From a bacterium (GTDB lineage Bacteria; Actinomycetota; Acidimicrobiia; Acidimicrobiales; Bin134), in NCBI GenBank assembly GCA_026705465.1, contig JAPPAP010000032.1:66693-130692 (forward strand): a stretch of DNA of 64,000 nucleotides, in the 5' to 3' direction. The first letter of the stretch is position 1; each line of letters starts with the position of its first letter. Shown here piece by piece: positions 3,681 to 45,409 of this stretch. Made by a program: the position numbers and the translations under genes. The notes beneath the pieces were generated by a model. It was given only the letters and a program-made list of their open reading frames with translations. It made no database searches and was not told the DNA's origin.

Positions 3681-6032
<2,352 letters not shown>

Positions 6033-36554: not shown

Positions 36555-37112
36555 TCAGCAAACCTCCTTGGACAGCACCGGCGTCAACCGGCGGATTGTC
36601 CGCAATGCTCGATAGATCCTCGCGGGAGCAACCACAGACCGCAGCTCATGGCTGGGAGTGTCGGTCACCACCCGCACCACCGCGGCCGAACCGCGATGAT
36701 GCTCCAACAGCCAGGCCGACTCCATGTCAACCGCCACCGCCCCCCGGTCAGCCAGTTCTTTTCGGCGGGGGCCGATTGCCAACTCAGCCACGCTGGCCAC
36801 CGGACCGGTGTGCACGGTAAACCCGGCAGATTGCAGGCTCTTGGCCACCGCATCTGCTCCGGGCAAGCCAATCGGCGATACATTGTCGGCCGACACTTCG
36901 GTGGCCACCACGACGTCGCCCGGGTCGATGCCGTCAACCACCGCCCCGCCCATGCCGACCACCGCCACCGGGCCGCTGCGCGGCTCAACTGTGCGGCTGC
37001 GTTTCGGACCCATACCGGTACACACCACCGTCGCCCCGCTTCCAGCTCGGCGGATTCCCCGCCGGGCGGCTCGGGCCTCCATAGCCAACGGACAGAGCAC
37101 CACCAGGGTCAC
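36555..37112 (-). CDS. hpnG: Hopanoid-associated phosphorylase
   Basis: 185 residues from GTG 37112, which overlaps the shc stop (GTGA). Frames reaching further up are inside shc and are not used. It has the nucleoside-phosphorylase-like pattern: ATVVCTGMGP near the start, VAVVGMGGAVVDGIDPGDVVVA, and AVDMESAWLLEH with the base-binding ME pair. HpnG removes adenine from adenosylhopane to give a ribosylhopane. It is about 20-30 residues shorter than many family members at the N-terminus, but the core motifs are complete. Confidence 0.88.
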   Translation of the reverse strand: MTLVVLCPLAMEARAARRGIRRAGSGATVVCTGMGPKRSRTVEPRSGPVAVVGMGGAVVDGIDPGDVVVATEVSADNVSPIGLPGADAVAKSLQSAGFTVHTGPVASVAELAIGPRRKELADRGAVAVDMESAWLLEHHRGSAAVVRVVTDTPSHELRSVVAPARIYRALRTIRRLTPVLSKEVC

Positions 37113-38995
37113 CCCTCCCCCGTTGTCGCCTGCATCCAGCGGCCCAGAGCCATCAACGGGAACACCAGGCGGTAGAGGTGGTACCGAATGTAGAAGTCTC
37201 CAGAGAAGCCGGTGCCGGTGTACCAGGGCTCGTCCCAGTCGCCGTCGTCGCGCTGGTTTTCCAGCAGCCAAGCCACCCCTCGCCGAGCCGCCTCCTCGTC
37301 GGCCCGGCCCGCCGCGACCAGCGCCAGCAGCGCCCACGCCGTCTGCGACGGAGTGGACTCCCCCCGCCCTCGCCAGTTGTCGTCGACATAGGAGCGCATG
37401 TCCTCGCCCCACCCGCCATCGTGGTTCTGCACCGACTCCAGCCACCGGCAGGCTCGCACCACCCGGTCATCATCGGCCGGCACTCCGGCGCTGATCAACG
37501 CCGGGACCACCGCCCCGGTGCCGTAGATGTAGTTGGCCCCCCAGCGCCCATACCAGGAGCCGTCCTCCTCTTGTTGGGCGGTGAGCCACTGAATCCCACG
37601 GGCCATTGCAGTCCGGTCGACTGGGAAGCCCATCTGGTCGCCATCCAGCTCGGCGAGCATCTCCACCACATGGGCGGTCACGTCGGCCGACGGCGGATCG
37701 ATGACCTCTCCGAAATCGCAGAACGGCAGCTCAGCCACCAGTGGAGAGCAGTTGTCGGCGTCAAATGCAGCCCAGCCCCCATCGGAGCATTGCATGCCCT
37801 GGGCCCAAATCACCGCCCGGTCCAATGCCTTTTGCACCTGCTTGGCATCGGGATGGCGGATGCGACGCAGGGCGAGGGCCACCTCGGCCGTATCGTCCAG
37901 ATCAGGGTAGTAGTTGTTCTCGAATTCGAACGCCCATCCTCCCGGTGCCAGATGGGGGCGCTGCTCGGCCCAGTCGCCCACGATCTGGACCTCCTGGTCG
38001 ATGAGCCAGCGGGCCCCCGCCATCATCTGCGGGTCTTCGGGGTCCACGCCTGCGTCGGCCAGCGCGAGCAGCGCCAGACAGGTATCCCAAACCGGCGACT
38101 GGCAGCACTCCAGCCGACGCATGTCGTCTTCGACGATGGTCCAGGCGTCGAAGCCGGCCAGCCCTTGGGCCAAGATCGGATGGTGCAGGGAATAGCCCCG
38201 CACGTACAGAGCCAACAGCGAATACACCCACGGCGGCTGGATGCCACCCCAGCAACCGTCAGACTCCTGACGGGCGATGATCCATTGCTCGGCCCTGCTG
38301 AGCGCCCACTCCCGTACCCGCCGCTGCGGGCGGTTCTCGTAGAGGTGCAGCACCTGATCGAGACGCTGGAATCGCCGAGCTGGACTCCCAAGCGGGGCGA
38401 GCTCCCGCTCTGGAGGGATGGCCCCGGTGCGGATCTCGTCCAGGTTCAGTCCCATAGACCGAACCGGGCGGTGAGCGCCCACCACAGTCAAAGCGACCAG
38501 TGTTTGGCGGGCCCAGCAAGCGAAGTCATAGATGTTCAGCGGAACCTGCTTGGGCAGAAAGATCACTTCTGGGGGCAGAGCGGGCAGATCCTCCCATCGC
38601 CAGAGGTCGAACAGCGCCATCCAGATTCGGGTGAATACCCGGCTGCGCTCCAGCCCTCCCTCAGCACGGATGTAAGCGGCGGCCTTGGCCATGTGGTCGG
38701 CATCAGCGGGATCTCCGGCGTAGCGCAGCGCCCAATAGGCCTCCACGGTCACCGACAGATCGGCCGGACCCTGGTAGAAGGTGGCCCATGTGCCGTCGGC
38801 TCGCTGGTTGTGGCGAATCCAGTTTGCCGTTTGCCGGGTGACCTCGGGGTCGGCGATGCCCAAGAATTCCCGGAGGAATAGATCCTCGGCCTCGATCGAC
38901 ACATTGGTCTCGAGCTCGTCTTTCCACCAACCCTGGGTGTCTTGAAGGCTGAGGAGCCGTTCAGTGGCCTTGGCCAAAGATTGCTCAACGCCCAT
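37109..38995 (-). CDS. shc: Squalene-hopene cyclase
   Basis: 628 residues from ATG 38995; the frame runs up to 39196 but that part is inside the upstream gene. The catalytic acid motif DLDDTA is at 365-370, fitting SHC's DxDD. QW repeats are spread through the chain, for example QESDGCWGG near 243, CSDGGWAAFD, QEEDGSWYG and QNHDGGWG. The enzyme is a monotopic membrane protein that folds squalene into hopene. Its ATG shares a base with the stop of the prenyl synthase gene, and its own stop overlaps hpnG. Confidence 0.96.
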   Translation of the reverse strand: MGVEQSLAKATERLLSLQDTQGWWKDELETNVSIEAEDLFLREFLGIADPEVTRQTANWIRHNQRADGTWATFYQGPADLSVTVEAYWALRYAGDPADADHMAKAAAYIRAEGGLERSRVFTRIWMALFDLWRWEDLPALPPEVIFLPKQVPLNIYDFACWARQTLVALTVVGAHRPVRSMGLNLDEIRTGAIPPERELAPLGSPARRFQRLDQVLHLYENRPQRRVREWALSRAEQWIIARQESDGCWGGIQPPWVYSLLALYVRGYSLHHPILAQGLAGFDAWTIVEDDMRRLECCQSPVWDTCLALLALADAGVDPEDPQMMAGARWLIDQEVQIVGDWAEQRPHLAPGGWAFEFENNYYPDLDDTAEVALALRRIRHPDAKQVQKALDRAVIWAQGMQCSDGGWAAFDADNCSPLVAELPFCDFGEVIDPPSADVTAHVVEMLAELDGDQMGFPVDRTAMARGIQWLTAQQEEDGSWYGRWGANYIYGTGAVVPALISAGVPADDDRVVRACRWLESVQNHDGGWGEDMRSYVDDNWRGRGESTPSQTAWALLALVAAGRADEEAARRGVAWLLENQRDDGDWDEPWYTGTGFSGDFYIRYHLYRLVFPLMALGRWMQATTGEG

Positions 38996-39993
38996 CAGAA
39001 ATCCCTTCCCACGATGAAATCGGCCAGCAACCGAAACTCCTCCATCACTTCGTCTACGACCTCCTCGCGCGTTGCCAAAGAATCGAGAGCGGAAACAGCC
39101 AGGTCGTAGTGGGTCCGGGCCAACTCCTGAGTGCCTTCCTGGCCACCCCCCGCCTCCACCAATGCTCGGGCTGCGTCCACTCCTCCGGCATCCCATTCGG
39201 GACGGGAGTACAGCTCAGCCAGCTCGTCGGCCACCGAGGTGCCGCTGTTGAGGGCGATCACCACCGGCACCGACTTCTTGCGCTCCCGAAGGTCGGCCCC
39301 TGAGGGCTTGCCGGTACGCTCGGGATCGCCCCAGATGCCCAGAAGATCGTCCACTGCTTGGAACGCCACTCCCATCTGGGCCCCGAATTCGGACAGCCCA
39401 TCGACCACCGAGTCGTCGGCCTCGGCCAGAATCGCCCCGACCGAGGTTGCGTACGACAACAGCGCCCCGGTCTTGCCCTGCTCCATGGCCAGACACTCCT
39501 CCAGGGTGACGAGAGGCTTGTCCTCGAAAGCCATGTCCATGCTCTGGCCGGCGATCATTGCCGAAACAGCTCCGGTCAGATGCTTGGCCGCCTTGACCCT
39601 GGGCGGTGTGGGGTCGGACAGCAAGACCTCATAGGCCAGATTGTGAAGAGCGTCTCCCGACACCACGCCGGCCCCGATGCCGAACTTGGCCCATACCGTG
39701 GGCCGGTGTCGACGCTCGGCATCGTTGTCGATGATGTCGTCGTGGATCAGCGAGAAGTCGTGAATCAACTCGATGGCCACCGCTCCGGGCACTCCGGTGT
39801 CTGATGGGGCGCCCACGGCCTCGGCCGACAATATGGCCAGCGCCGGGCGGGTTCCCTTGCCTGGGCTTTGGAAGTGGTATTCGGCGGGTTCTCTCAGCTC
39901 AGGACACAACCCGCTCAGTGCGGCGGCGATGGCCGGGTCGACCAGATCCCTGGCTCGCTTAAGGATGCCGGGAACCGGTACTTCCCTACTCAC
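38995..39993 (-). CDS. Polyprenyl (farnesyl/geranylgeranyl) diphosphate synthase
   Basis: 332 residues. The first Asp-rich motif is SLIHDDIIDNDAERR and the second reads VDDLLGIWGD, with Gly where DDxxD has its last Asp, as in actinobacterial IdsA-type enzymes. GKGTRP near the start binds IPP phosphate. A Phe five residues before the first DD suggests a short product such as FPP, the squalene precursor. This choice between FPP and GGPP is an inference. Lying between hpnE and shc with overlapping ends, it probably supplies FPP for the operon. Confidence 0.9.
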   Translation of the reverse strand: MSREVPVPGILKRARDLVDPAIAAALSGLCPELREPAEYHFQSPGKGTRPALAILSAEAVGAPSDTGVPGAVAIELIHDFSLIHDDIIDNDAERRHRPTVWAKFGIGAGVVSGDALHNLAYEVLLSDPTPPRVKAAKHLTGAVSAMIAGQSMDMAFEDKPLVTLEECLAMEQGKTGALLSYATSVGAILAEADDSVVDGLSEFGAQMGVAFQAVDDLLGIWGDPERTGKPSGADLRERKKSVPVVIALNSGTSVADELAELYSRPEWDAGGVDAARALVEAGGGQEGTQELARTHYDLAVSALDSLATREEVVDEVMEEFRLLADFIVGRDF

Positions 39994-41468
39994 GCGCTCA
40001 TCCTCTCTTGGTCAATCCCTGACTCTGGTACGCCCATGTGGTGACCAGAATTGTCGTCGGATGATCGGGCAGGCCTGGATGCAACTGCGGTGCGGCAGTG
40101 ATCCAGGGCCATATCGGCCGCCAGCTTGCCGGAGCGGACCGCGCCTTCCATGGTGGCAGGCCAGCCGGTATCGGTCCACGCTCCGGCCAAGAACAGCCCG
40201 TCGATGGCAGTGGCCGGACCGGGACGAAGTCGCCGGGTGCCGGGACGCCCGGCAAAGGTGGCCCGGTGTTCTCGGGTGACCACGGCGTCGATCACCTCAG
40301 CCTCAGCCGACAACGGCAGCAGTTCGGCGAGAGCAGACCGGTAGCGCTCGATCATCTCCGCCGGCCTCTCGCCGATCTCATCGAAAGCCGCCGACTGCGA
40401 CACCGCCACAACCTGCTCGCCGCCATCCCCAGCGCTAGCCCGCACCCCCGGGTCATTCTCAGCCCAGTTGGCGGCCTCGGTTCGGTCGAACACGAATTGC
40501 ACCGGGGAGTCCAGAGCTGCGGTGAAGGGCACATCCATGACCTGGCGATCGAACACGAAATGCACGTTGACAATGGGCGATACCCCGAGGTCGACCAGCT
40601 CGGATTGCCCCGGCACGGTGCTGGGAGGCAGCAGGCCGTCCACAGCATCGTGGGGCACGGCAAGAATCACCGCGTCGGCGTCAAGCCGCCGCCCGTCCAC
40701 CGTAACCGAGGGTCCTTCACCCACCGATTCCACGTGGGCTTGAAGCTGGATTTGGCCGCCTTGGGCGGTGATCGCCCGGGTCGCGGCATCCCCGTGGAGA
40801 GCAGCCAAAGGCACTCGGGTCCAGCCCAGATCGCCAGCATCGGCGCTGTCCAAGAGCCCAGTGCGGAACACCTTGACAGCCAGGCTGAGCGAGGCATCGT
40901 CGGCCCGGAGGTTCACGGTGGGCAGGCAGATGAGATCCCACATCCCGGCAATAGCCCGATCGGTCTCGCCGCGAAATCGCAACCATCCCCCAAAGCTCAT
41001 CTCGTCGGTGCTCGGATCATCAGGATCAAGGCGACGCAAGGCCAGCGCGGAGCGAATCGCCCGCAGCCGATCGGCCACCGAGAGCGGGCTGTAGCCCAGC
41101 AGTGAGCGGGCCAGATGAAGGGGGGCCGGGGCGCCGGTTCGGAATATGCGGGCCCGACGGCGACTGGGGCGCATCACCGAAACAGACATACGGCGCTGTT
41201 CGGTCACCTGGTCGGCCACTCCCAGGCGCTCCAACAGGACCCGGTACTCGGTGCAGCACCGCATGAAGACGTGCTGACCGTTGTCGAACCAGCGGCCGTT
41301 GCGTTGGAACGACCAGGTAGCACCACCCAACCGGGGAGCCCGCTCATAGAGCGTCACCATCGCTCCGCCGTCGGCGGCGGACACCGCCGCGGCCAGCCCG
41401 GCGAGCCCGCCTCCGACCACCGCGATCTTCGGCTTGGCGCTCGGCGTGAGGGTCACGGACGAACTCAT
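39990..41468 (-). CDS. hpnE: Hydroxysqualene dehydroxylase, FAD-dependent
   Basis: 492 residues. The N-terminal FAD dinucleotide fold is IAVVGGGLAGLAAAVSAADGG with ERAPRLGGATWSF. The C-terminal FAD loop is GLFLAGAWTDTGWPATMEGAVRSG. It belongs to the phytoene desaturase/amine oxidase fold. In the three-step HpnCDE route it reduces hydroxysqualene to squalene. Start and stop overlap hpnD and the prenyl synthase gene by 4 bases each. Confidence 0.94.
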   Translation of the reverse strand: MSSSVTLTPSAKPKIAVVGGGLAGLAAAVSAADGGAMVTLYERAPRLGGATWSFQRNGRWFDNGQHVFMRCCTEYRVLLERLGVADQVTEQRRMSVSVMRPSRRRARIFRTGAPAPLHLARSLLGYSPLSVADRLRAIRSALALRRLDPDDPSTDEMSFGGWLRFRGETDRAIAGMWDLICLPTVNLRADDASLSLAVKVFRTGLLDSADAGDLGWTRVPLAALHGDAATRAITAQGGQIQLQAHVESVGEGPSVTVDGRRLDADAVILAVPHDAVDGLLPPSTVPGQSELVDLGVSPIVNVHFVFDRQVMDVPFTAALDSPVQFVFDRTEAANWAENDPGVRASAGDGGEQVVAVSQSAAFDEIGERPAEMIERYRSALAELLPLSAEAEVIDAVVTREHRATFAGRPGTRRLRPGPATAIDGLFLAGAWTDTGWPATMEGAVRSGKLAADMALDHCRTAVASRPARSSDDNSGHHMGVPESGIDQERMSA

Positions 41469-42319
41469 GTGGTGACTCCGGCCAGACTGCGAAGGGCTAC
41501 CCAGGCTTTCTCCCTGGTGGGCAATGACATCCGCCTCTCCAGCACCTCAGTTGGCGCGGCAGCAATACGGGCCAGCAGGCGGTGGTAGATCCCGGCCATC
41601 GCACCGGTACAGGCCCGGCTGCGTCGATCCAGCATGTCGAGCAGCTTCAGCCCTTGCGCGAAGTGCCGTTCGGCTCGCTCCGCCTCGAAGGCCACCAGCT
41701 TGCCCACTGCGTCGGGCGGGCCGGTCAGATCGGGGGCGCAGCCGAATCGCTCGATGTCCGCGGTTGGCAGGTAGGTCCGGCCCATGCCCCGGTCCTCCAC
41801 GATGTCTCGCAGAATGTTGGTGATCTGAAGAGCGACACCCAGCACATCGGCCAGCTCGGCGGCCTCTTCGGGATCGCCGCTGGTGCCGAAAACCCCGAGC
41901 GACAGGCGGCCCACCGATCCGGCTACCAGTCGGCAATACTCCTCGGTCTCCTCAATGGTGGCGTACACCTTCCCAGTAGCGTCCTGCTCGCAACCGGCAA
42001 CGATCTCGTTCAGTGCCGCCGTCGGGATGGGGAAGCGGTCGATGGCATGGCGCAGACCCACCAGCACCGGGTCGTTGGCATCGCGGAGCCCGCCGTCCGC
42101 CAGCGTGTCGATATCAGCCCGTATCTCGGTCAGGTGGGCCAGCTTCTCATCTTGGGGCAGTGGGCCATCGCCCACATCGTCGATGCGCCGGGCCATGGCG
42201 TACAGCGCCGACATGGCCTGGCGCTTCGGCTTGGGCAGTAGGCGGATGCCGTAGGAGAAATTGCGGGCCTCGGCTCGGGTGATCTCCTCACACCGCTGAT
42301 AGGCGTCGGCCGCCTTCAC
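41465..42319 (-). CDS. hpnD: Presqualene diphosphate synthase
   Basis: 284 residues of the squalene/phytoene synthase family. The two Asp-rich motifs are ARRIDDVGDG and LRDIVEDRGMGRTYLP. NFSYGIRLLPKPKRQAMSALYAMARR is typical of HpnD. It condenses two FPP molecules to presqualene diphosphate. Its start overlaps the stop of hpnC by 4 bases. Placement between hpnC and hpnE supports this over phytoene synthase. Confidence 0.94.
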   Translation of the reverse strand: MKAADAYQRCEEITRAEARNFSYGIRLLPKPKRQAMSALYAMARRIDDVGDGPLPQDEKLAHLTEIRADIDTLADGGLRDANDPVLVGLRHAIDRFPIPTAALNEIVAGCEQDATGKVYATIEETEEYCRLVAGSVGRLSLGVFGTSGDPEEAAELADVLGVALQITNILRDIVEDRGMGRTYLPTADIERFGCAPDLTGPPDAVGKLVAFEAERAERHFAQGLKLLDMLDRRSRACTGAMAGIYHRLLARIAAAPTEVLERRMSLPTREKAWVALRSLAGVTT

Positions 42320-43218
42320 CCTCGCCTCCAGCGTGTTGCCATGTCCTGCACGGCGCGAACCGCTTTGGCATCGGTCGCCTGGCCAGGAGTGACGAGGCGA
42401 ACCACGTGGGCCGCCGTGCGGACCTTCGATGGGGTCCGCAGCTTGTTGAGCACGTCGTAGTCAGCCCTGGCTATGGCGTCCAGAGCGGCCATTCCGCCGC
42501 CGGCATAGCCGGCCACGGTCACCTTGGCCCAACCGCTGAGAGAGGCTACCAGCGGCCCTCCCCGACTCAGCAGCCCTCGGGCCGTGTCGCATTGGTGGGC
42601 CACCAACCGGCGGAGTGGGTCCGAAGCCCGGGCCGCCCCGAGATCCTCCTCGACCACGCCGAAGCGGGCCATCTCATCAGCCGGGAAGTAGATGCGCCCC
42701 TTTTGGGTGTAGTCCTCGCCGATGTCTTGGAGATGCTCCACCAGTTGCAGGCCAGTACACACCGCATCGCTGAGGGCGATGCGCTCGGGGGTGGCCGCGC
42801 CGAACACCGCCAATACCAGCCGACCCACCGGATTGGCCGAAAGCGTGCAGTACTCGGCCAACTCGGCCTGGGTCTGATAGCGGGTCTTGCGCTGATCGAC
42901 TCGGTTGGCCTCGATGAGCGCCAAGAACGGCTCATCGTCGATATCAAGTTCGTCGAGAAGAGGAGTGATCTGGACCATCACGGGGTGGGTGGCATCGCCG
43001 GTGCGTGCTCGTTGGAGCTCCGCTTCGATCCAGTCCAGCGCGGCCAAGCGATCGCCTTGAAATTCGTCTCCGATGTCGTCCACCAGTCGGGCGAATCCGT
43101 AAATGGCCAGAAGATGGGCGCGGGCGCGCGCCGGCACTGCCTTCAACGCAACCGGGAAGTTCTCGCTTCCCCTCTGGTCCATGATCGAGTTCAAGTCGAA
43201 CCCGACTTCAGCCTGCAC
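42316..43218 (-). CDS. hpnC: Hydroxysqualene synthase
   Basis: 300 residues of the squalene/phytoene synthase fold. The motifs are GFARLVDDIGDE and LQDIGEDYTQKGRIYFP. SENFPVALKAVPARARAHL is the HpnC N-terminal hallmark. It converts presqualene diphosphate to hydroxysqualene. The start is taken as GTG 43218 with a GCGGGGG ribosome-binding site; an ATG twelve codons further in, just before the conserved SENFPV, is possible. It is the first gene of the hopanoid operon and follows a regulatory spacer of 130 bases. Confidence 0.93.
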   Translation of the reverse strand: MQAEVGFDLNSIMDQRGSENFPVALKAVPARARAHLLAIYGFARLVDDIGDEFQGDRLAALDWIEAELQRARTGDATHPVMVQITPLLDELDIDDEPFLALIEANRVDQRKTRYQTQAELAEYCTLSANPVGRLVLAVFGAATPERIALSDAVCTGLQLVEHLQDIGEDYTQKGRIYFPADEMARFGVVEEDLGAARASDPLRRLVAHQCDTARGLLSRGGPLVASLSGWAKVTVAGYAGGGMAALDAIARADYDVLNKLRTPSKVRTAAHVVRLVTPGQATDAKAVRAVQDMATRWRRG

Positions 43219-43244
43219 AGCACCCCCGCTGTTTTTCGGGCTAA

Positions 43245-43260
43245 CCCGCTGGTCAGCGGG
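43245..43260. promoter_or_regulatory. Perfect 7-bp hairpin in the hopanoid operon leader
   Basis: CCCGCTG-GT-CAGCGGG is a perfect inverted repeat 27 bases upstream of the hpnC start. It is flanked by two direct copies of CGGGCTAAC (43237-43245 and 43257-43265). It may be an operator, or a hairpin in the 5' leader. The direct repeats favour protein binding. Confidence 0.4.
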
Positions 43261-43319
43261 CTAACAAGACTTTCTATGACATTGATCTGACAATCGTTAC
43301 CCAATTGCAAACAAAAGAA

Positions 43320-43333
43320 TGACCATCAGGTCA
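43320..43333. promoter_or_regulatory. Candidate operator upstream of the hopanoid operon
   Basis: TGACC-ATCA-GGTCA is a perfect 5-bp inverted repeat with a 4-base spacer. It sits in the AT-richer stretch between hpnC and the MerR/TetR fusion gene, about 100 bases upstream of hpnC. A short dyad like this in a promoter beside a TetR-type gene is a typical operator candidate. No clear -35/-10 pair was identified. Confidence 0.4.
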
Positions 43334-43348
43334 CCTTTTTGTACGCGC

Positions 43349-44143
43349 TCAATCCGAAGCTGTCAAGGCATTGACGGCTCCGCCGTCTTCGAACTTGGGA
43401 CGATCGGCGAAACGGCCCATCAGGCTCTCGGCGAATATGTGGGCGATAGCGTCCATTATGAGGGCCCCGGCGAGCCGGTGGCCTCTGGGATCATCGGACA
43501 AAGCCTCCCCAAGTCGCTCAGCCAGTCGCCAGAACACCCGCTGGGCGGCGGCGGCGTGCTCCACCTGGCCCTGCACCGAGCGCTTGGCCACCTCCAGCAT
43601 GATGGGCAGGCCGGGTAGCAGGGTTTCAGCCAAACGGCGGGTGAGCTCTTGGCGGCTCAATCCGACTTGACCGGCTACTGCGGCGGCGAACTCCTCGGCG
43701 GTGTTGTCCACCACCGCTTCCACCGCGTGAAAGAACAGGTCTTGTTTGGAGCGGTAGTGGCGGTAGAAGGTGCCTTTGGCCACTCCGGCCAAGGTGCAGA
43801 TGTCGGCCACGCTCACCTCGGTGTAGCCCCTCAGGGCAAATTCCTGAATGGCCATGTCGCGCAGTTGCTCCCCGCTGTCGGGCACCTTGGCCATATCGGC
43901 GTTGTCGGTGCTCTCGGCGTCCATGATCTGGGCGATGTGGCGCAGCGGAAGACGGTGGCGCTCTCGCAGATCCCTGATCCGCTCGACGGCATCGACGTGG
44001 CGTTGGTCGTAAAGGAAGCGGTTGGCGGCGGCTCGTCGGGGCAGGGGCAACAGACCCAGCCGTCGATAGTGGTGGATAGAGGCAGCCGGTACTCCGGTGC
44101 GGGCTACCAGCTCACTGATGGAGAACTCACCGGGAGTGCCCAT
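43349..44143 (-). CDS. Transcriptional regulator with fused MerR and TetR DNA-binding domains
   Basis: 264 residues. Residues about 7-74 are a MerR winged helix: FSISELVARTGVPAASIHHY, then RRLGLLPLP, NRFLYDQRHVDAVERI and LPLRHIAQIMD. Residues about 94-140 are a TetR helix-turn-helix (AIQEFALRGYTEVSVADICTLAGVAKGTFYRHYRS in pieces). The rest is a helical TetR ligand domain, including EVAKRSVQGQVEHAAAAQRVFW. Each type normally works alone, so one chain with both is unusual. It is directly upstream of the hopanoid operon on the same strand, with 130 bases between. It likely controls that operon and perhaps itself. The inducer is unknown. Confidence 0.88.
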   Translation of the reverse strand: MGTPGEFSISELVARTGVPAASIHHYRRLGLLPLPRRAAANRFLYDQRHVDAVERIRDLRERHRLPLRHIAQIMDAESTDNADMAKVPDSGEQLRDMAIQEFALRGYTEVSVADICTLAGVAKGTFYRHYRSKQDLFFHAVEAVVDNTAEEFAAAVAGQVGLSRQELTRRLAETLLPGLPIMLEVAKRSVQGQVEHAAAAQRVFWRLAERLGEALSDDPRGHRLAGALIMDAIAHIFAESLMGRFADRPKFEDGGAVNALTASD

Positions 44144-44153
44144 GCCTCCACTC

Positions 44154-44209
44154 TTATTCGCTTTGCTCTGCCACCGCCAGTGCGTCTTCGAAGCTGATGC
44201 CCCGAATCG
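44154..44209 (-). pseudogene. Relic of a duplicated reductase C-terminus
   Basis: Just after the reductase stop, in a shifted frame, the DNA encodes RGISFEDALAVAEQSE and a stop (44156-44154). The reductase itself ends GTSFEEAIKIAEQE. The DNA is similar too: both have AGCTTCGAAGA followed by a GCC/GCA-rich stretch and GCAGAGCA or GCCGAGCA. This looks like the tail of a tandem paralogue left after deletion. A frameshifted extension of the reductase is a less likely reading. Confidence 0.5.
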
Positions 44210-45409
44210 CTACTCCTGCTCGGCGATCTTGATGGCTTCTTCGAAGCTGGTGCCCTGTTCGATGAGGTTGCGATACTTCATCACGTGGCGGGGTCGATTG
44301 AACCCGAGGACGCCCACCAGTCGGCCAGCCCGGCCGTAAAGGGCTGCGAACCGCCGCTCCTCGGTCGACCCGGTGATGATGCGCACCTCGTCGTCGGGGG
44401 CGGCTCGTCCCGCCAGTTGGATCTTTCGGTCGTACTGATCGCTCCAAAACCACGGGACCGGGGCGTAAGGCTGGACCTCGCCGTCGGAGGCCAGCAGGCG
44501 GAGCGCCGCATGCTGGCCCTGAGCGATGGCGTTGTCCCAATGCTCCACCCGCATGGTCTCGCCGAAGAGGCGGTTGGGCCAGCGGGCCACGTCCCCGGCG
44601 GCGGCAATTCCCGGCGCGGCCAGACAGGTCTCGTCGCACACCACTCCGTTGTCCAAGGTCAGGCCCGAGCCCTCCAGCCACTCGGTGTTGGGAATCACGC
44701 CGATGCCCACCACCACCACGTCGGCTTCCACAGTGGTTCCGTCGCTCAGATTCACCCGTTCCACCCGGCCATGGCCCTCGAAGCCGTCGACGCCCACGCC
44801 GAGGCGAAGGTCCACCCCATGGTCCCGGTGCACGTCGGCGCATACGGTGCCGACCTCGGTGCCCAGAACGCGGCCCAACGGCACCGGGAGGGCTTCGATC
44901 ACGGTTACCTCTAAACCCCGCTCCCGGGCGGTGGCCGCCACCTCCGCGCCGATGAATCCAGCACCCACCACTGCCACCCGCTGTGGAGAGGCCTCTAGCT
45001 CGGCCCGGATGGCCAGACAGTCGTCCAAGTCCCGCAGGGTGTAGATGCCGCCCAGCCCGTTGGTGGGCAGCTCCCGGCACCGGGCCCCAGTGGCGATGAG
45101 AATGCCGTCGGCGGTCACCGCCGAACCGTCGTCGAGGGCGATAGTGCGGCTGGCCACATCGAGTCCAACCGCCCGGCGGCCCAGTCGCCAGTCGGCGCCT
45201 AGTTCCTGGAGCGAGTCATCGTCGGACAGCGCGATGCGGTCTTGTTCCCATTCCCCGGCCAGGAGCTGTTTGGACAGGGGAGGCCGGTCGTAGGGCTGGT
45301 GGGGCTCATCCCCAATGATGGTGATAGTCCCGTCGAATCCTTCTCGCCGGAGCGACTCCGCTGCTCGGGTTCCGGCCAGCGACGCTCCAACAACGGCTAG
45401 TGAGCGCAG
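44210..45409 (-). CDS. FAD/NAD-dependent ferredoxin reductase, apparent CTG start
   Basis: 399 residues if started at CTG 45409. The FAD motif LAVVGASLAGTRAAESLR lies right after that codon, so it must be included, yet no ATG, GTG or TTG exists in frame between the upstream stop and this motif. A GAGGAG ribosome-binding site ends ten bases before the CTG. The NAD motif is VAVVGAGFIGAEVAATARERG, and a C-terminal FAD contact is in GIAAAGDVARWPN. It passes electrons from NAD(P)H to ferredoxin for a P450 or other oxygenase. The ferredoxin gene ends 7 bases upstream. The P450s at 1315 and 20471 are candidate clients. Confidence 0.88.
   Translation of the reverse strand: MRSLAVVGASLAGTRAAESLRREGFDGTITIIGDEPHQPYDRPPLSKQLLAGEWEQDRIALSDDDSLQELGADWRLGRRAVGLDVASRTIALDDGSAVTADGILIATGARCRELPTNGLGGIYTLRDLDDCLAIRAELEASPQRVAVVGAGFIGAEVAATARERGLEVTVIEALPVPLGRVLGTEVGTVCADVHRDHGVDLRLGVGVDGFEGHGRVERVNLSDGTTVEADVVVVGIGVIPNTEWLEGSGLTLDNGVVCDETCLAAPGIAAAGDVARWPNRLFGETMRVEHWDNAIAQGQHAALRLLASDGEVQPYAPVPWFWSDQYDRKIQLAGRAAPDDEVRIITGSTEERRFAALYGRAGRLVGVLGFNRPRHVMKYRNLIEQGTSFEEAIKIAEQE

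Follow-up and report, generated by a model that had tools for sequence, protein, structure and literature searches.

Can one protein that joins two DNA-binding domains of unlike families control the synthesis of hopanoids, the bacterial counterparts of cholesterol? The question is raised by a gene for a MerR-TetR fusion regulator (here called REG) in the window, by which we mean the whole stretch of 64,000 nucleotides that was analysed; the gene lies beside a hopanoid operon (Table 1). A sequence-only reading had proposed, from its place directly upstream of hpnC, that it exerts a dedicated control of hopanoid synthesis. Comparison of genomes shows the fusion, its synteny, a predicted operator and the co-loss of the two, and the conserved synteny, the conserved predicted operator and the co-loss give this proposal comparative support. 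We consider it quite probable that REG is a transcription factor dedicated to the hopanoid operon, acting locally via a predicted composite operator.

Table 1. Features of the REG-hpn locus, with coordinates in the window.
Feature	Coordinates	Strand	Basis or remark
Ferredoxin reductase, upstream of REG in the genus	44210..45157	minus	Frame extends upstream past 45157
MerR-TetR fusion regulator (REG)	43349..44143	minus	264 aa; start codon at 44143, stop at 43349-43351
MerR winged-helix domain, aa 7-76 (PF13411)	43916..44125	minus	Pfam and AlphaFold2
Flexible linker, aa 80-87	43883..43906	minus	pLDDT <50; variable in genus alignment
TetR helix-turn-helix, aa 96-138 (PF00440)	43730..43858	minus	Pfam; AlphaFold2 helices 90-105, 112-119, 123-129
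Compact C-terminal domain of TetR type with four helices, aa 133-241; putatively for ligand binding and dimerisation	43421..43747	minus	AlphaFold2; fold match FasR 6o6o
Predicted composite operator GTACAAAAAGG-TGACC-TGAT-GGTCA-TTCTT-TTGTTTG	43308..43344	minus	Genus footprint; order-wide motif
Inner operator core TGACC-N4-GGTCA, exact palindromic arms	43320..43333	no strand	Order-wide motif
hpnC, squalene synthase, first gene past the predicted operator	42316..43218	minus	TIGR03464 288.8 bits, cut-off 250
hpnD, presqualene diphosphate synthase	41465..42319	minus	TIGR03465 281 bits, cut-off 278.6
hpnE, hydroxysqualene dehydroxylase	39990..41468	minus	TIGR03467 395.5 bits, cut-off 283
Polyprenyl (FPP/GGPP-type) synthase	38995..39993	minus	PF00348; NCBIfam matches below cut-off
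Squalene-hopene cyclase (shc)	37109..38995	minus	TIGR01507 741 bits, cut-off 431

The REG gene is read on the minus strand (44143 to 43349) as one frame of 264 codons without an internal stop; the plus-strand frame over 43349-44143 is interrupted by a stop. The earlier claim of two DNA-binding domains in a single uninterrupted frame is borne out by Pfam, in which MerR_1 matches residues 7-76 (E 3.8e-15, 56.2 bits, cut-off 21.6) and TetR_N matches residues 96-138 (E 2e-17, 63.1 bits, cut-off 24); the MerR winged helix-turn-helix also scores above the cut-off of PF00376 (29.5 bits). The AlphaFold2 model, a monomer without DNA built from 49 homologues (mean pLDDT 86, pTM 0.62), contains a complete MerR winged helix (helices 9-16 and 20-28, wing 36-45, helices 47-63 and 67-78), a disordered linker at 80-87, the TetR helix-turn-helix and four more helices at 133-241, the TetR protein portion spanning residues 90-241. 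Where the dimerisation helix and short effector domain of a MerR protein are expected, REG has a flexible linker and a TetR protein. A 'full TetR ligand domain' had also been claimed, of which a helical domain at 133-241 is indeed predicted; it is however compact, and no Pfam TetR_C family matches these residues. The C-terminal domain is shorter than usual in TetR proteins, with fold matches at a TM of about 0.6 of the target, and the closest solved folds to REG are TetR proteins, FasR (6o6o) first, with FadR-type acyl-CoA sensors also listed. In the genus alignment both DNA-binding domains are strongly conserved and the linker and C-terminal tail are variable, residues 80-87 being the least conserved inner stretch.

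The chance that an assembly error or a frameshift fused two genes is negligible, since the fusion is present in 19 of the 22 genomes of the genus (18 full length, one cut by a contig end), including the single-contig assemblies G020 and G021, and the same fusion occurs in many other families. We therefore rejected this origin of REG, and the fusion is not absent from relatives either, the other way in which the reading could have failed. Within the genus REG is 84-91% identical and syntenic, the gene order reductase-REG-hpnC-hpnD is retained wherever the contig allows, and a squalene-hopene cyclase is present in 21 of the 22 genomes. In G006 and G016, whose genomes are reduced, the hpn operon has been kept and REG lost. 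The named relatives are sponge-associated Acidimicrobiia MAGs, including Candidatus Poriferisocius. In one of them, Candidatus Poriferisocius aerobius (L034, positions 4260-4300), REG runs almost straight into hpnC, without the gap, the predicted operator or the start of hpnC, owing to either a deletion or an assembly fault.

In the window, HpnC, HpnD, HpnE and the cyclase all score above their NCBIfam cut-offs. The best score of the prenyl synthase of the operon was to NF041169, the cargo prenyl transferase of family 2 encapsulins, and lies below the cut-off (351.9 vs 450 bits). When the 397 genomes of the order were searched with a profile, REG was detected in 67 of them (E<=1e-14), which belong to 35 genera and at least 12 families; the REG of G101 was added by hand, giving about 68 of 397 genomes. 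Homologues from outside the genus share 27-45% identity with the window protein. Wherever the contig reaches far enough, the gene order is nearly always REG, hpnC, hpnD, hpnE, the prenyl synthase and shc, with REG directly upstream of hpnC and on its strand. The clear exceptions are loci interrupted by a contig end, many loci being MAG contigs that stop in the REG-hpn region, and the REG of G080 (L084), for which 4 kb of downstream sequence were read and no hpnC was found. A strong HpnC match was found in about 83 genomes of the order, 64 of which have REG. The co-occurrence with hpn operons, proposed earlier as a check, is thus marked: hpnC is present in 64 of the 68 genomes with REG vs 19 of the 329 without (Fisher 2e-51, not corrected for kinship, the related genomes in these counts not being independent samples).

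The composition of the locus varies in places. The dxs gene encodes the first enzyme of the MEP isoprenoid pathway, and in family f32 (L079, L087, L090, L100, L118) it stands between the operator and hpnC and heads the hopanoid operon (TIGR00204 577 bits, cut-off 466). A dxs gene heading the operon was also seen at a contig end in L099. In a subclade of family f16 (L088, L091, L092, L094, L098, L116) the MerR domain is shortened: its profile match extends only to position 58, the last MerR helices are absent, and the TetR domain begins almost immediately afterwards.

We searched the phylum as well, and family f107, which does not belong to the class, also has REG beside its hpn genes (E about 1e-90 to 1e-96). 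Two of its loci (L149 and L150) have a gene of the YjbQ family between REG and hpnC. Weaker MerR-TetR fusions, three to six per genome, occur in f81, f87, f94, f101 and other families, and no hpn genes were found in the flanks of these that were read. They share with REG the domain order, and both Pfam domains were confirmed above cut-off in diverse members of the hpn-linked and the unlinked groups, but they form a separate clade: in a tree of 60 sequences the hpn-linked REG proteins fall on one side of a 100/100 branch, apart from the non-hpn fusions. Because of these fusions elsewhere in the phylum, the MerR-TetR architecture itself is not unique, and we rejected, in the form in which it was made, the claim that chains with DNA-binding domains of two families are rare, as paralogous fusions are common in other families. 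The hpn-linked REG proteins are an old family.

In the genus alignment, one block of the gap between REG and hpnC, GCGTACAAAAAGGTGACCTGATGGTCACTCTTTTGTTTGCA, is nearly invariant and the sequence after it varies; the block is also conserved where REG ends earlier, being non-coding there over its whole length. In other families the core TGACC-N4-GGTCA recurs in the same gap. At the 26 loci with short gaps we counted 15 perfect cores in 6.4 kb of gap vs 2 in 424 kb of remaining sequence, an enrichment of about 500-fold; a core with at most one mismatch is present in 21 of the 26 loci and in none of the other five, and GAC...GTC is invariant over 38 of 38 sites. Outer half-sites resembling GTACAA and TTGTAC lie about 11 bp, or one helical turn, outside the inner ones. 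They are weaker, with at most about 0.5 bit per position, and their position varies by 1-2 bp; nevertheless, both flanks are enriched in the GTACAA-like half-site: none of 2000 shuffles attained the observed mean, and the same held in a reduced set of 21. The predicted 37-bp operator of the window consists of inner and outer inverted repeats nested on one dyad axis, and we regard 43308-43344 as the probable operator.

The location of the site in other families speaks for an operator that serves the first gene for isoprenoids or hopanoids, and not for a terminator of REG. In f32 it lies about 8-45 bp after the REG stop, i.e. ahead of dxs, and in two f16 loci (L072 and L075), whose REG-hpnC gaps measure 2.5 and 1.0 kb, it lies 74-84 bp before hpnC, the starts of hpnC being extrapolated from alignments. 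It is thus highly improbable that the inverted repeat is a REG transcription terminator, or an RNA hairpin in the hpnC leader, and not a protein site, although the window site scores terminator-like on both strands and folds in an RNA consensus. The arms are invariant in sequence across families, as the 38 GAC...GTC sites show, whereas compensatory changes would be expected of an RNA stem; a T-run is missing from many sites; the site of L072 and L075 is 0.95-2.4 kb from REG and beside hpnC; and the site vanishes together with REG in G006 and G016. A search of Rfam gave no match above the gathering score.

We then asked how specific the site is. The core pattern has 17 matches in the window genome vs 10 for the control. 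A flank weight matrix built from other genera was applied to 15 of these 17 cores, two on C40 being left out, and among the 15 only the hpn site has matching flanks (22.9 bits, the next 14.4). On these 15 cores, a wider regulon in the window genome was rejected. The composite pattern GTACA-N4..7-TGACY-N4-RGTCA occurs in 43 of the 397 genomes: 15 members of the genus have exactly one copy each, in the REG-hpnC gap, eight further occurrences are in the REG-hpnC gaps of other families, and there are 20 elsewhere vs about 17 for a reversed-pattern control. The operator site was not found in G006 and G016, which lost REG and kept the operon, and 17 of the 18 hpn operons without a detected REG have no core upstream of hpnC, a set which includes G042, where dxs meets the contig end and which may not be a true negative. 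In L101 (G109, positions 1600-1660) a perfect core stands ahead of hpnC although the MerR-TetR fusion was not found there; the genes upstream of that hpnC resemble a sigma factor and DnaG. The marks of the hpn operon regulator clade, a MerR-TetR fusion adjoining hpnC and TGACY-N4-RGTCA before the first biosynthetic gene, are both present. Autoregulation through the same motif was rejected, as no core with fewer than two mismatches was found in the 250 bp upstream of REG.

How might REG act? Our preferred reading is that it would be a lipid-sensing and probably repressing regulator dedicated to hopanoid synthesis. We suggest that a REG dimer, held together by the C-terminal helices of the TetR part, would bind the predicted composite operator between REG and the first biosynthetic gene. 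One pair of helix-turn-helices would make contact with the inner TGACC/GGTCA arms; the second pair, on the same face of the DNA, would meet the GTACAA/TTGT arms that lie 11 bp outward. Our guess is that the TetR domains read the inner arms and the MerR domains the outer ones. The bound dimer would block the promoter of hpnC (or of dxs-hpnC), and would be released when a hydrophobic signal of the pathway, such as an isoprenoid, an acyl-CoA or a hopanoid-like compound, enters the TetR pocket; the hydrophobic class of the ligand is suggested by analogy with the fold neighbours FasR and FadR (PMC7382501) and by the pathway itself.

As an alternative, the TetR domain alone may read the operator, the MerR winged helix being a leftover or an aid to dimerisation and the outer half-sites being TetR contacts or promoter elements, and REG would then be an ordinary TetR-type local regulator with an appendage. 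We hold this reading to be rather unlikely. It would fit the retention of the inner core in the f16 subclade with the shortened MerR domain, as well as the low information of the outer half-sites. However, the helix-turn-helix and wing of the MerR domain are among the most conserved parts of REG and are kept even in the shortened forms, and the outer half-sites are placed symmetrically, one helical turn out. As a tentative proposal, to which we give slightly less than an even chance, the MerR and TetR heads of one dimer would define a two-headed class of regulators, with REG as its founding member, that reads a nested four-part operator and sets the flow of isoprenoids into hopanoids across much of this actinobacterial order.

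As to the direction of control, the canonical members of the MerR family activate transcription. The protein at the top of the fold matches, FasR, is described as a TetR-like transcriptional activator (PMC7382501). REG could accordingly be an activator that switches hpnC on, by a MerR-like remodelling of the promoter or by a FasR-like activation through the TetR fold, which we consider possible but the less probable course. A promoter with a 19-bp spacer and the dyad centred in it, as MerR-like activation would have it, was not recognised, and neither a sigma-70-type promoter around the site nor a consistent -10 element or fixed TANNNT position near it was found, in scans that are weak for actinobacteria. 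In several members of f16 the distance from the end of the core to the predicted start of hpnC is about 12-25 bp, which fits occlusion better, and for this reason we lean somewhat towards repression.

Both the domains of REG and its kind, that of a local one-component regulator, are known, and the architecture and the proposed target are new. In the open-licence literature, in which earlier work may be missed, we found no description of MerR-TetR fusions. REG resembles lipid-sensing TetR regulators, especially FasR (6o6o, PMC7382501) and FadR-type proteins, in having a TetR helix-turn-helix followed by a helical C-terminal domain, and in its relation to lipid synthesis genes. It differs from them, at a sequence identity of about 20%, in its extra N-terminal MerR winged helix, its shorter C-terminal domain and its proposed target, the hopanoid operon. 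TetR proteins usually repress from a palindromic operator close to the gene that they control; for REG a conserved palindrome is predicted by comparison. Among proteins of this type, the closest earlier case of a chain with two DNA-binding units is Mce3R of Mycobacterium tuberculosis, a double TetR chain (9b7y) that binds a non-palindromic site (PMC11667970), is tied to lipid-related genes and matches the TetR part of REG in phmmer; in place of two TetR units, REG combines MerR with TetR, and the site predicted for it takes the form of a nested palindrome. With the MerR family (TipA, CadR and BmrR types) REG shares the complete winged-helix domain, PF13411 being above cut-off, but a whole TetR protein replaces the usual effector part.

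That regulators of hopanoid synthesis are little known agrees with our search of the open-licence literature, in which we found no dedicated regulator of the hpn operon, only the control of the tailoring gene hpnP by EcfG in Rhodopseudomonas palustris, as cited in PMC4337730 (Kulkarni et al. 2013). On that account EcfG and REG have in common the transcriptional control of a hopanoid gene; EcfG, however, belongs to a general stress sigma pathway, and its target here is a tailoring methylase, whereas REG is proposed to be a dedicated regulator of the operon with a predicted operator of its own. REG accompanies the hopanoid genes of many related lineages, and the same nested site is almost always there as well, so that the protein is a strong candidate for a dedicated switch. 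It offers a concrete candidate protein with a concrete predicted 37-bp target for the core of hopanoid synthesis, from which a lineage-wide regulon prediction follows, and its two unlike DNA-binding domains with a nested operator would make a simple system for how TetR- and MerR-type reading combine. Knowledge of the hopanoid switch would also aid the interpretation of hopane biomarkers.

Some minor observations concern the flanks of the REG gene. A small ferredoxin-like frame precedes the ferredoxin reductase upstream of REG. We had considered that the reductase might be truncated and rejected this, as its frame continues upstream beyond 45157 and the gene is intact. At 44154-44210 on the minus strand, a second frame past the reductase stop repeats its tail, the first ending in TSFEEAIKIAEQE and the second in ISFEDALAVAEQSE, each followed by a stop, as if the end of the gene had been duplicated. 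On the other side, the hpnC leader (43218-43300, minus strand) contains a genus-conserved hairpin, CCCGCTGACCAGCGGG, in which the changes are mostly wobble, and a second genus-conserved hairpin, ACAGC-GGGGGT-GCTGT, with a likely ribosome-binding site in its loop. These hairpins may reflect a translational control of hpnC, or chance conservation.
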